A stretch of 49,240 nt of DNA from an uncultured Bacteroidales bacterium (GTDB taxonomy: Bacteria; Bacteroidota; Bacteroidia; Bacteroidales; Muribaculaceae), in assembly GCA_902772455.1 (NCBI GenBank), contig CACYAW010000007.1, positions 1 through 49,240 on the forward strand, written 5' to 3'. Positions 13,166-16,530 of the stretch are shown here, piece after piece (position 1 is the first letter of the stretch; each line of letters starts with the position of its first letter). A model generated the notes under the pieces. It was not told the DNA's origin. It made no database searches and saw only the letters and a program-made list of their open reading frames with translations. Made by a program: the position numbers and the translations under genes.

Positions 13166-13207
13166 TTGTAAGTTTTTAGTTGTAAGTTGTAAGTTGTAAG
13201 TTGTAAG
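13166..13207. repeat. Heptamer array TTGTAAG x6 before yidC
   Basis: Six phased 7-base units (TTGTAAG, TTTTTAG, then TTGTAAG four times) lie 11 bases upstream of the yidC start, in its leader. A similar unit also occurs at 13638. Confidence 0.9.
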
Positions 13208-13237
13208 TACGATTTGTATCGCCTGAAATATAATGTA

Positions 13238-13600
13238 TTAAAACGGGATGAGAGAATTAGAAAGAGCATTGAGCATCTTATCAATCTCCTCTATTTGCTT
13301 TTGTGCACTGGAGACCTGTGATACATCCAGGTAATTGACTCGTTCACAAATTTCCAACTGCGTTGACAGTTCTCTAAGAGACCCTCTTGCAATAGACAAA
13401 AACCTGACAAATTCTTTCATCGTATCGCGTCCTTGTCCTTCAGCAATATTTGAAGGAATAGACACAGCCGACCTGCGCATTTGATCAGATAATCCATATG
13501 CTTCTTCACGAGGCAAAAGTTTGACCAGAGAATAAATTTCAACAGTCAAGTCCATGGCTTTTTGCCAAACCTTCAGATCTCTTACGTCACTGGACTTCAT
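13238..13600 (-). CDS. Four-helix-bundle protein (23S rRNA intervening-sequence type), 120 aa
   Basis: The protein has the TIGR02436/PF05635 pattern: DLKVWQKAMDLTVEIYSLV, LSDQMRRSAVSIPSNIAEG, and four helices in 120 residues with a final LNALSNSLIPF. Members occur as insertions in 23S rRNA genes of spirochaetes, as the Avd accessory of diversity-generating retroelements, and as stand-alone genes. No reverse transcriptase is near. It is clearly lower in GC than the flanking yidC and pyrG and lies between heptamer repeats, which suggests it was acquired as a unit. The function is unknown. Confidence 0.92.
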   Translation of the reverse strand: MKSSDVRDLKVWQKAMDLTVEIYSLVKLLPREEAYGLSDQMRRSAVSIPSNIAEGQGRDTMKEFVRFLSIARGSLRELSTQLEICERVNYLDVSQVSSAQKQIEEIDKMLNALSNSLIPF

Positions 13601-13637
13601 ATTATTGCTCTATTACAATTCTTGTTACCGCCGGCGT

Positions 13638-13665
13638 TTGTAAGTTGTCTGTTGTACGTATCAGG
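13638..13665. repeat. Heptamer repeat upstream of the four-helix-bundle gene
   Basis: TTGTAAG, TTGTCTG, TTGTACG and TATCAGG are four phased 7-base units in the same orientation as those at 13166, on the other side of the four-helix-bundle gene. Confidence 0.65.
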
Positions 13666-13679
13666 CAATTGTATTCTTA

Positions 13680-13714
13680 CTTAAAACTAACAACTTAAAA
13701 CTTAAAACTTAAAT
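13680..13714. repeat. Heptamer array CTTAAAA x5 at the pyrG 3' end
   Basis: CTTAAAA, CTAACAA, CTTAAAA, CTTAAAA and CTTAAAT are five phased 7-base units touching the pyrG stop codon (13714). Confidence 0.85.
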
Positions 13715-15333
13715 TATTGCTCTGCGGTGGTGATGGCGGCGTTGATGAAGGACATGAAGAGGGGGTGCGGGTTCAAGACGGTGCTGGAGTACTCGGGGTG
13801 GTACTGGGTGCCGATATACCAGCGATGCCCCGTGAGTTCGATGACCTCGGCCAATCCACTCTCGGGGTTGACGCCTGCGATAGTCATGCCGGCGTCCTCA
13901 AACTGTTTGCGGTACTCGTCGTTGAACTCGAAGCGGTGACGGTGTCGCTCCTCGATGTCGGTCTTTCCATAAGCCTCTGCAACTTTTGTGCCAGGCTTCA
14001 CGCGACAGGCATAGGCGCCCAGGCGCATCGTGCCGCCCAGGTTGGTCACCGTCTTCTGGTCCTCCATGAGGTCGATGACGTTGTTGGGGGTCTTCTCGTC
14101 CATCTCGGTGCTGTTGGCGTCGGCCAGGCCCAGCACGTTGCGGGCGAACTCAATGACCATGCACTGCATGCCCAGACAGATGCCGAAGGTGGGCACATCG
14201 TGCTCGCGGCACCATCTCAGGGCAATATACTTGCCCTCGATGCCACGCTGGCCGAATCCCGGTGCCACGACGATGCCGTCGTGGTCCTTGAGCAACTGCT
14301 CGACGTTGCCGTCGTGGATGTGCTCGCTGTTGATGTAGTCGAGGCGCAGGCGGCGGTCATGGTAGGCGCAGGCGTGCAACAGGCTCTCGTCGATGCTCTT
14401 GTAGGCATCCTGCAGCGAGACATACTTGCCCACGAGGCCGATGCGCACCTCCTTGCGCGCACCCTTGAGTTTGCCCAGGAATTCGTTCCACTTGTCGAGG
14501 TCGGGCTCGCCGTCGCTGGAGAGCCCCGTCTTCTCGAGGATGATGTTGTCGAGACGCTGCTCGTGCATCTTGAGGGGCACCTCATAGATGGTGGGCACGT
14601 CCAGGCTCTGTACCACGGCATCGGGGCTGACGTTGCAGAACTGGGCCACCTTCTTGAGCATGGTGGCGGGCAGTTGGTGCTCTGTGCGCAGCACCAGGAT
14701 GTCGGGCTGGATGCCTTCCTGCTGGAGCAGTTTCACGCTGTGCTGGGTGGGCTTGGTCTTGAGTTCCTTGGCAGCGCTGATGTAGGGGACATAGGTGAGG
14801 TGCACACAGATGCAGCGGCGCCCCAGTTCCCATCGCAACTGCCTGATGGCCTCGATGAAGGGCAATGCCTCGATATCGCCCACGGTGCCACCAATCTCGG
14901 TGATGACGAAGTCATACTTGCCGGTGGTGCCCAGCAACTTGACGTCGCGCTTGATTTCGTCGGTGATATGTGGGATGATCTGCACCGTCTTGCCCAGGTA
15001 GTCGCCGCGGCGTTCCTTGTCAATGACGCTCTGGTAGACGCGTCCCGTGGTCACATTGTTGGCTCGGGTGGTCTTGATGTTGGTGAAGCGCTCGTAGTGC
15101 CCCAGGTCCAGGTCAGCCTCATGGCCATCGACGGTGACGTAGCACTCGCCGTGCTCGTAGGGGTTCAACGTGCCCGGGTCGATGTTGATGTAGGGGTCAA
15201 ACTTCTGGCAGGTGACGCTATAGCCACGCGAGAGCAACAGGCGTGCGATGCTCGACGCGATGATGCCTTTACCGAGCGACGATACCACGCCGCCGGTGAC
15301 AAAAATGTATCTTGTTTCCACTTGCTTACTCAT
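13714..15333 (-). CDS. pyrG: CTP synthase, 539 aa
   Basis: The N-terminal synthetase domain begins [20 protein letters not shown] with the P-loop SLGKGI. The C-terminal class-I glutamine amidotransferase domain has the nucleophile motif FGICLGMQC and the His/Glu pair (TQYHPEY). The enzyme makes CTP from UTP using glutamine-derived ammonia, the last step of pyrimidine nucleotide synthesis. The length of 539 is typical. A -7 element (TACCTTTG, 15357-15350) lies just upstream. Confidence 0.98.
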
Positions 15334-15349
15334 AAAATTAACTAACCTG

Positions 15350-15357
15350 CAAAGGTA
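15350..15357 (-). promoter_or_regulatory. -7 element for pyrG
   Basis: TACCTTTG on the minus strand, 16 bases before the start codon; no clear -33 partner at the expected spacing. Confidence 0.4.
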
Positions 15358-15411
15358 CTAAAAAGATTTCACTTTCCACCCCATTTGCTCCAGGAAACTG
15401 ACAAACGGGAT

Positions 15412-15515
15412 AAACTGGACAAACTGGACGGGGCTGGACAGGGCTGGACGGGGCTGGACGAACTGGACGAACTGGACGGGCTGGATGGGCTGGAGGGGCT
15501 GGAGGGGCGCGCGAG
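15412..15515. repeat. CTGGAC short tandem repeat (left copy)
   Basis: Imperfect 9-10-base units (AAACTGGAC, GGGGCTGGAC, GAACTGGAC, GGGCTGGAG) run for about 100 bases and end in a GCGCGCGAG motif. The same succession, ending in GCGCGCGAG, recurs at 16464-16530 in the same orientation. Confidence 0.9.
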
Positions 15516-15519
15516 TGGG

Positions 15520-15722
15520 CGAGCCGCGTCAGCGGCGGTCCAGTCCAGTCCAGGCGAGCCGCGTTAGCGGCGGTCCAGTCCAGTCCAGTCCAGGCGAGCC
15601 GCGGCAGCGGCGGTCCAGTCAGTCCAGGCGAGCCACGGCAGCGGTGGTCCAGTCAGTCCAGGCGAGCCGCGTCAGCGGCGGTCCAGTCAGTCCAGGGGAG
15701 CCGCGTCAGCGGCGGTCCAGAT
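15520..15722. repeat. Hairpin-bearing ~34-bp tandem repeat, six copies
   Basis: Each unit contains GAGCCGCGTCAGCGGCGGTC followed by CAGTC or CAGTCCAGTC. The inner CCGC/GCGG can pair. In the copy at 15633-15647 the stem is changed on both sides (CCAC/GTGG), a compensatory change. The last unit overlaps the 3' end of the four-helix-bundle suffix gene, whose final codons and stop are the repeat itself. Confidence 0.88.
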
Positions 15723-16401
15723 TCTGCAGGCGGGCGATTTGGTCTTGCAGGCGGGCGATTTGTTGCTTGAGTTGGGTGATTTCGCGGGCCTGGCGGTCAA
15801 TGATCTCGCGTTGGGTCTCGCGCTGGTTGAGGCGGGCGGCGGTCATCCTCTCGCGGATGCCACCCTCGGTAGTGAATTCACGGTCCTTGCGGGCGATATA
15901 GGCCTCCAGGGCTTTGTCCACCTGATGAGAAAGGCACAGCGCCATGTTGGCCATCTCCTCGGCGTCCATTTTGGGGAAGAGTTCTTTGTAGTCAGTGTAG
16001 AGGTAGTGCTGGCGGCAAAAGTCGAGCATGGCGCTATAGCGGGGATGCCCCGGCTGCCAAATCGCCATGTCGCTGTGTTTCAAGTAGTCCTGATAGTCTT
16101 CACACAACTCGCGGTTGCTGCCCCTGGCGGCATTGAGCAACTTGATTTCCATCTCCATGCTGGTCCGTCCGTCGACGCTGCCCTCAACGATGTTCTGTTT
16201 GCCGCTGCGGGCCGCCTGCACCATCTGGTCGACAGTGCGGTCTCCCCATTTCCTGAAATACCGCTTGCAGAAGGATTGCGTCAACTGGTAGAGGACGTCG
16301 CTGCGGTGATAGAAACGCAACTTCTTGTAATCGGTGGGCTTGCGCAGCACGCTGGCAATGCCGTCATCATAGTGATTGACCTTGCGGGGGGAGTTGTCCA
16401 T
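15706..16401 (-). CDS. Four-helix-bundle protein with suffix domain, 231 aa
   Basis: Residues 25-110 (YKKLRFYHRSDVLYQLTQSF, WGDRTVDQMVQAARSGKQN, IVEGSVDGRTSMEMEIKLLN) match the four-helix-bundle family, and the following WQPGHPRYSAMLDFCRQH region matches the suffix domain that NCBI calls four-helix-bundle suffix (TIGR04258). The end is a coiled coil of repeated ITQLKQQIARLQDQIARLQ. The final LDRR and stop are encoded by the hairpin repeat next to the gene, so the coding end has either been shaped by the repeat or has grown into it. The function is unknown. Only distant similarity to the 120-aa protein at 13238 is expected. Confidence 0.88.
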   Translation of the reverse strand: MDNSPRKVNHYDDGIASVLRKPTDYKKLRFYHRSDVLYQLTQSFCKRYFRKWGDRTVDQMVQAARSGKQNIVEGSVDGRTSMEMEIKLLNAARGSNRELCEDYQDYLKHSDMAIWQPGHPRYSAMLDFCRQHYLYTDYKELFPKMDAEEMANMALCLSHQVDKALEAYIARKDREFTTEGGIRERMTAARLNQRETQREIIDRQAREITQLKQQIARLQDQIARLQNLDRR

Positions 16402-16463
16402 TGGGTGATAGGGATTGGTTTCTTATCGCAAAAATACAGAAAACCGCCCACCCCCACAAACAA

Positions 16464-16530
16464 AAACTGGACAAACTGGAGAAACTGGAGAAACTGGACG
16501 TGCTGGAGGGCTGGAGGGACAGCGCGCGAG
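16464..16530. repeat. CTGGAC short tandem repeat (right copy)
   Basis: AAACTGGAC, AAACTGGAG twice, AAACTGGAC, GTGCTGGAG, GGCTGGAG, then AGCGCGCGAG: the same units and end motif as at 15412-15515, same orientation, on the other side of the gene. Confidence 0.88.

Follow-up and report, generated by a model that had tools for sequence, protein, structure and literature searches.

We analysed a window of 49,240 nucleotides (positions 1 to 49,240 of contig CACYAW010000007.1, assembly GCA_902772455.1) from an uncultured Bacteroidales bacterium of the Muribaculaceae, in which two small genes encoding four-helix-bundle (4HB) proteins lie beside pyrG and yidC, each between arrays of a short tandem repeat (Table 1). 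The identities of pyrG and yidC, and the position of both loci beside them, were confirmed. The product of the first gene scores 142.6 bits against TIGR02436 (cut-off 24) and 148 bits against PF05635 (cut-off 33.8). Its nearest solved relative is XCC0516 (2gsc, E 1.7e-25), described in PMC4990558 as a homopentamer of four-helix bundles. Six polar residues (Q40, R43, S47, N51, E54 and E77) are each near invariant, in 178-180 of 180 sequences, in agreement with the motif GxxRxxxSxxxNxxE printed for the 23S_rRNA_IVP family in PMC3936711.

The initial annotation had this gene enclosed by TTGTAAG heptamers in the same orientation on both sides. The left array is present (score 76 in Tandem Repeats Finder, TRF), and so is the stretch proposed as its right-hand copy, but that stretch is weak and gives no TRF report at a minimum score of 30; the stronger right-hand array lies farther out and is inverted relative to the left one, so that the arms are not direct copies. 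In a folded transcript of the element the two arms pair across the open reading frame (ORF; z -4.54). An S23p ORF flanked by inverted, complementary ends is the layout of an intervening sequence (IVS) of 23S rRNA, and the window element has this layout outside 23S rRNA, between pyrG and yidC.

The product of the second gene, of the four-helix-bundle suffix kind, scores 54.8 bits against TIGR04258 (cut-off 40). It also exceeds the TIGR02436 cut-off (27 versus 24 bits) while remaining under that of PF05635 (24.2 versus 33.8), indicating that the two genes are relatives and not unrelated, as had been supposed. The suffix unit spans ~1.1 kb. Its two CTGGAC-type arrays are found as first described, in the same orientation and both with GCGCGCGAG at the end, but the left side also holds a 34-bp tandem array with inverted GTCCA/GTCCAG copies. 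Such 34-bp arrays, composed of a GCCGCG...CAGCGGCGG palindrome and GTCCAG-type copies, adjoin two suffix genes of the window's own genome (G000): the one in the window (15518-15720) and one on contig C45 (G000:C45; L008 969-1107).

Table 1. Repeat arrays and associated genes in the window (TRF, call by Tandem Repeats Finder).
Feature	Position	Strand	Basis
TIGR02436 / PF05635 four-helix-bundle gene (S23p, 23S_rRNA_IVP), 120 aa	13238..13600	-	profile scores
Period-7 arm (AGTTGTA; coding strand ACTTACA), 3' of 4HB gene	13164..13208	+	TRF
Weak degenerate TTGTAAG-like stretch within 4HB element	13638..13665	+	seen in letters; no TRF call
Period-7 arm, 5' of 4HB gene, inverted relative to 13164-13208	13679..13713	-	TRF; arms pair in fold
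Entire 4HB element in the pyrG/yidC gap, ends approximate	13158..13720	-	comparison with relatives' gaps
Four-helix-bundle suffix gene (TIGR04258 plus weak TIGR02436), 231 aa	15706..16401	-	profile scores
Period-9 array, CTGGACGAA-type (CTGGAC-type)	15400..15508 (TRF 15413-15508)	+	TRF
Period-9 CTGGAC array, 5' of suffix gene	16464..16518 (TRF 16464-16499)	+	TRF
34-bp tandem array with inverted GTCCA/GTCCAG copies, overlapping the 3' end of the suffix ORF	15518..15720	+	TRF
ORF-less period-7 array, inverted halves TTAGGCTTTAGG ... CTAAGGACTAAGG	33803..33885	.	weak hairpin, z -2.0
ORF-less period-7 array	28222..28279	.	no hairpin fold, z +1.25

Loci of the TIGR02436 kind were collected from the genus of the window, from its phylum outside that genus, and from named genomes across many phyla, the last fetched through one conserved peptide pattern. 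The loci fetched were the best-scoring of each search, with one genome per species, and the samples are not random. Rows of the 4HB kind, the suffix kind and a third kind, encoding a GxxExxY protein, were chosen with profiles built from the genus loci. ORFs were called mechanically and repeat periods by ungapped matching. Arrays were scored as the best segment of a 200-bp flank whose bases match those one period away, with a score of 8 as the threshold, and rows short of flank were dropped (73 of 80 named loci, for example, were kept in the both-flank count). Two relatives recur below, the sister genome G007 and the genus relative G040.

The enrichment of paired flanking arrays that the initial annotation proposed to look for is strong in the genus, where period-7 arrays stand on both sides of the TIGR02436 gene in 64 of 78 rows (L118 and L313 being the same place) and are inverted in 62 of these 64. 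Both-side arrays occur at 37 of 73 named loci, 30 of the 37 inverted. At a stricter score of 11 the counts are 58/78 and 29/73. A control within the same loci gave 0/16 on both sides and 4/16 on either side (all four from the named set); being tiny, it was replaced by other ORFs in 537 kb of the window's own genome, of which 9/339 have arrays on both sides (2 inverted) and 69/339 on either side. For control ORFs shorter than 200 aa the both-side count is 0/79. The genes themselves are common: 153 of 198 sampled genomes of the window's phylum have one. No 23S rRNA match was found in the 20 scanned of 80 named loci, and no 4HB match among 50,697 phage records.

To evaluate orientation, we reverse-complemented each downstream flank and aligned it locally with the upstream flank of the same locus, taking the 95th percentile of mismatched partners as the threshold. 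TIGR02436 flanks exceed it in 51/79 genus, 13/29 phylum and 55/73 named loci, suffix flanks in 11/28 genus and 5/26 phylum loci, and GxxExxY flanks in 19/30. When inverted and direct scores were compared, the inverted score was the higher for TIGR02436 in 76 versus 2 genus, 26 versus 3 phylum and 56 versus 14 named loci, and for GxxExxY in 20 versus 10. By this comparison inversion of the arms is general for TIGR02436, frequent for GxxExxY and no rule for suffix loci.

The repeat period of the arms is associated with the protein family encoded between them. Among nine matches to the TIGR02436 profile in the window's own genome, TRF reports period 7 at four short genes (one of them single-sided) and period 9 at five suffix genes (two single-sided, one of these at a contig end). 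Across 180 TIGR02436 loci, with periods of 5-11 allowed and the duplicate place L118/L313 counted once here and in the tree test only, 122 were called as period 7, 21 as 8, two as 9 and one as 6; period 7 was called in 12 phyla of the named set, including one archaeal and one cyanobacterial record. On the protein tree the period changes 11 times, compared with 19-24 times in 300 shuffles, indicating that it follows the tree. The 32 genus suffix rows (L007 and L032, one place, are counted twice) comprise 22 of period 9, four of period 10 and six without a call, the 26 phylum suffix rows ten of period 9 and 16 without a call, and period 7 was called in none of the suffix rows. GxxExxY loci are more varied: three of period 8, two of 9, five of 10, one of 11 and 19 without a call among 30 phylum loci, whose arms are by eye about three units long; 4/9 of period 8 and five without among pyrG rows; and 2/4 of period 9 and two without in the own genome. 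A strict rule of 7 bp for TIGR02436 was rejected, since period 8 occurs in some clades, period 6 at one locus and period 9 at two, and so was period 8 for every GxxExxY gene. Applied to the 339 control ORFs, the same caller returned no period for 277, period 7 for 46, period 9 for nine, period 6 for five and period 8 for two; we attribute the 46 to the abundance of ORF-less arrays in this genome.

Periods 7 and 9 also dominate the arrays in 390 kb of the own genome, beyond what chance would give. A census at score 14 counted 30 of the former and 12 of the latter, no more than one of any single period among 4-6, 8 and 10-13, and 4, 8 and 4 of periods 14, 18 and 21. Only 1/37 period-7 and 2/15 period-9 arrays lie inside ORFs of at least 150 aa, though such ORFs make up 86% of 537 kb. 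Two ORF-less period-7 arrays are in the window (Table 1); for the second of them a hairpin is not supported. On contig C42 a 103-bp ORF-less copy has in common with the window element not only the arms but also the subterminal sequence TTTCAGGCGATA...ATCGTACTTA, and folds with z -5.59. It has 67 matches in G000, 61 in G007 and 33 in G040, counts that include both strands of the palindrome and many arm-only matches; among the matches listed, at least 13 places in G000 cover at least 85 of its 103 positions at 70-100% identity. The family thereby combines terminal inverted repeats with short internally deleted copies, as does a miniature inverted-repeat transposable element (MITE). Locus L022 holds two more dispersed repeat families of the genus (1122-1299 and 3519-3594), with many partial matches in relatives.

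The occupancy of the pyrG-yidC gap, readable in 29 of 30 genus pyrG loci, varies between species. Four gaps carry a 4HB element (L060, which is the window, L066, L073 and L076), and eight carry a GxxExxY ORF scoring 119.5-145 bits against TIGR04256, with a cut-off of 35 (L061, L065, L067, L068, L069, L074, L080 and L081); in L062 the GxxExxY ORF is shortened internally. Two of the eight score 139.3 and 112.6 bits against PF13366 (PDDEXK_3, cut-off 22), and the D-ExK triad of this PD-(D/E)XK nuclease family (D73, E83 and K85) is kept in 38/38 sequences. The remaining 16 gaps are gene-less, nine of them without an array at score 8. In G007 the site holds a GxxExxY cassette with octamer arms, whereas the window has the 4HB gene with heptamer arms, and the sequences around these unlike cassettes are 96% identical towards pyrG and 99% identical towards yidC. 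A chained comparison of the window with the G007 contig gave aligned pieces of 92.7-98.8% identity, the large gaps being the pyrG-yidC cassette region, a 71-bp insertion in G007 and window positions 19009-20676. This last segment carries an IS110-family transposase gene. In G040 a long direct heptamer array of the AACTAGC type occupies a 53-bp pyrG-yidC gap without a gene (L082).

Other orthologous sites behave similarly. At a tRNA-adjacent site the element is present in nine loci read, in one orientation in three and in the other in six, and G040 lacks it; at another gap, arms without an ORF occur in six species, by eye with at least three unlike units among them, and are absent from G040. 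The empty G040 sites (L311 and L312) contain no array of period 7 to 9. Both gene orientations were found at 5/15 orthologous site clusters of the genus, one of the five matched on one flank only, and the closest flipped pair (L359/L360) is 94% identical at a single site. Flipped elements could arise by plain recombination between the arms or by insertion either way round. The initial proposal that the repeats differ between loci within a common layout, and that gene and repeats form one unit gained or lost between relatives, is borne out by these comparisons.

Plasmids provide one clean event. Among 72,556 plasmid records the window 4HB protein has 36 matches, of which 30 are cyanobacterial to judge by the listed names. 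Each of the nine loci read, which come from eight strains, is flanked on both sides by period-7 arrays (score at least 8.5), inverted by eye in eight. The locus on Trichormus variabilis plasmid C has two-piece matches in six other plasmids, covering 80% of the query at 97.7-98.2% identity. In the two of these plasmids that were read (L377 and L378) the flanks, 97.0-98.6% identical, join without the element at GTAAT, a sequence found at both ends of the full element. The difference is thus a 423-bp insert plus a 5-bp duplication, readable as 7-8 bp if one mismatch is allowed, and may be either an insertion or a precise loss. The empty site has no array of period 7 to 9. By eye, the same site holds a truncated copy in Nostoc C052 and an ORF-less copy in Brasilonema.

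Some 4HB elements of plasmids lie within CRISPR operons, between cas6 and cas4 (L372) and between cas10 and cmr3 (L394). The cas6-cas4 gap of a Dolichospermum plasmid (L383) holds a palindromic insert, GTAGGTTGGGTT ... AACCCAACCTAC, where a near-identical Anabaena sp. 90 plasmid has a 4HB element.

Taken together, these data make it likely that the gene and its flanking arrays are one small mobile element with non-autonomous derivatives, an intergenic relative of the 23S rRNA IVS, and small elements of this gene-between-repeat-arms design are probably widespread in bacteria and mobile. They would comprise a TIGR02436 kind of ~0.4-0.6 kb with inverted heptamer arms (octamers in some clades), a suffix kind with nonamer arrays of mixed orientation, and a third kind with a GxxExxY PD-(D/E)XK nuclease and inverted arms of period 8-11. 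The arms may form a hairpin or cruciform that is bound by the 4HB protein, perhaps as a pentamer like its solved relative, with the spacing set by the protein. A cut-and-join activity, either host-encoded or, in the third kind, the GxxExxY nuclease, would then insert the element between genes, and ORF-less copies could be mobilised in trans. The 23S rRNA IVS with an S23p ORF would be rRNA-dwelling members.

Several observations weigh against a mobile element. We know of no mobility enzyme for the 4HB kind, no search aimed at a transposase having been made. In the wider phylum just 4/29 TIGR02436 loci have period-7 arrays on both sides (3/4 inverted), and none of these 29 best-scoring loci does at score 11; no clear period was called at 34/180 TIGR02436 loci; and suffix arms are not clearly inverted (inverted versus direct, 10 versus 15 in the genus and 9 versus 15 in the phylum), so that inverted arms as a rule for this kind are unsupported. 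Recent copies are also lacking: among 189 elements there are no copies at least 90% identical at different sites, the nearest being 72-75% identical in the genus, and one pair of the named set, at sites that may or may not be the same, reaching 78%. An exact duplication was found at only one of seven polymorphic plasmid sites. The junctions at the other six (TraM, cas6-cas4, integrase, nrd, ABC transporter and cas10-cmr3) are unclean; at cas6-cas4 the flanks are 98-99% identical, yet a palindromic insert of a different sort occupies the site in the relative, and the remaining sites have remodelled intergenic DNA. Arrays without a gene are possible at such sites, as indicated by the gene-less pyrG-yidC gaps, 4/16 of which hold period-8 arrays (L071, L072, L079 and L088) and 3/16 period-7 arrays (L082, score 35.5; L083, 11; L087, 10.5). 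Finally, 90% of GGGAATC arrays lie between the same ORFs in two Xanthomonas species, according to PMC4692102, suggesting that such arrays can be stable.

That positional stability is what would be seen if the arms were regulatory or RNA-stability hairpins of the neighbouring operons, the 4HB protein an RNA-binding regulator and the units immobile. The pairing of the arms in the transcript and the strongly intergenic position of the arrays agree with such a role, as does the cutting of Coxiella IVS stems by RNase III (PMC4990558). We nonetheless consider immobile hairpins unlikely: one element is cleanly present or absent with a 5-bp duplication, two different cassettes occupy a single site whose flanks are 96-99% identical, some relatives lack the unit, and the copies of one family are dispersed over many sites. 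This last point and the clean insertion with its duplication also count against a spread by recombination between flanking genes, in which intergenic alleles are exchanged, arrays grow by slippage and the units have no mobility of their own. Allele exchange could account for the reuse of the same sites across many species, for arms at one site that differ by 14 bp, or two heptamers, and for the lack of near-identical copies at different sites; the difference between G000 and G007, however, is limited to the intergenic region, with flanks of 96% and 99%, and we regard the idea as improbable.

The initial annotation had suggested that genes insert into pre-existing short tandem repeats, with a continuous array expected where the gene is absent. 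The numerous ORF-less arrays of the own genome favour an origin of this kind, and arrays may have served as targets in places, since 7/16 gene-less pyrG-yidC gaps hold them; these seven are either ORF-less relics or arrays older than any gene. As the general case it is disfavoured and appears improbable: empty sites do exist, but the clean plasmid site, both G040 sites and the other 9/16 gaps are without an array, the arms match each other better inverted than direct across the gene in 76/79 genus rows, which splitting one direct array by insertion would not produce, and the likeness of ORF-less copies to the full element extends beyond the repeats into subterminal sequence.

MITEs, and the repetitive extragenic palindromic sequences (REP) and their REPIN combinations with the RAYT transposase, are short palindromic intergenic repeats with non-autonomous copies and a rarer gene-bearing form. 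The mobile elements proposed here resemble them in having palindromic intergenic repeats and non-autonomous copies beside a rarer full-length form with a gene; they differ in that the arms are tandem arrays whose unit varies by family, and in that the gene encodes a 4HB or PD-(D/E)XK protein and no known transposase. Among the closest likenesses is the 23S rRNA IVS of Coxiella, Leptospira and others, which has a PF05635 protein and terminal inverted repeats. As described in PMC4990558, the Coxiella IVS is termed a selfish element and has 428 nt, a size similar to that found here, an S23p ORF, a 28-bp terminal stem and, just 5' of the ORF, tandem GACAGAT heptamers that number two or three depending on the strain; a 23S IVS gene with adjacent heptamers has already been published in this one instance. 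The IVS, however, resides within 23S rRNA and is cut out of the RNA, whereas the present elements are intergenic, several per genome and accompanied by ORF-less copies. Because the IVS has the same anatomy in rRNA, the novelty here lies in the intergenic class and its spread, the period rule and the two sister kinds. A weak match was also obtained to the Avd profile of diversity-generating retroelements (NF033474, 41.1 bits), below the cut-off of 80.

Intergenic heptamer arrays have been described before, namely TAACTGA in Beggiatoaceae, Cyanobacteria and Bacteroidetes (PMC4679880) and GGGAATC in Xanthomonas and Nostoc, with 70 close inverted pairs in X. campestris (PMC4692102). These papers are concerned with regulation and quadruplexes. 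PMC4679880 contains neither '23S rRNA' nor 'intervening', and PMC4692102 neither 'S23' nor 'XCC0516'. X. campestris is the source of the solved 4HB protein XCC0516, and we infer a link between both kinds of array and 4HB elements. A still broader proposal, which we put forward tentatively and would not yet call likely, is that the S23p/4HB, suffix and GxxExxY proteins serve the mobility of a so far undescribed class of minimal elements that spans the prokaryotes and ends in tandem-repeat arms, each protein reading or building the repeat at a fixed spacing (7 or 8, 9, and 8-11 bp, respectively). Such a class would include the 23S IVS, and its non-autonomous copies would account for many unexplained heptamer arrays, among them those of GGGAATC in Xanthomonas and of TAACTGA in Beggiatoaceae.

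PMC3936711 lists 23S_rRNA_IVP genes in cas loci among CRISPR-Cas-associated functions. Family and motif are the same as here, and elements are found in cas operons; as related plasmids lack the gene, we read the cas-operon 4HB genes as inserted elements, which may explain the earlier association of the family with cas. In the open-access literature, to which the search was confined, we found neither a description of the class nor a link between paired intergenic arrays and these families of genes; with neither preprints nor subscription journals covered, this speaks only weakly for absence.

TIGR02436 proteins, though very common, are annotated only as four-helix-bundle proteins, and the lone intergenic, cas-operon and 23S rRNA positions of their genes had no explanation. 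The rule relating protein family to arm period unites IVS elements, intergenic heptamers and two further protein families, and assigns them a testable role in a mobile element. It also counsels caution, in that 4HB genes should not be read as parts of the operons around them.

Two minor observations concern the window and its assembly. Positions 23607-23792 of the window hold a 45-bp tandem repeat in four copies (TRF score 316) that is unlike the arrays studied. A second pyrG, 94% identical to that of the window, lies at G000:C45:12958-14562, and the assembly perhaps mixes two species.

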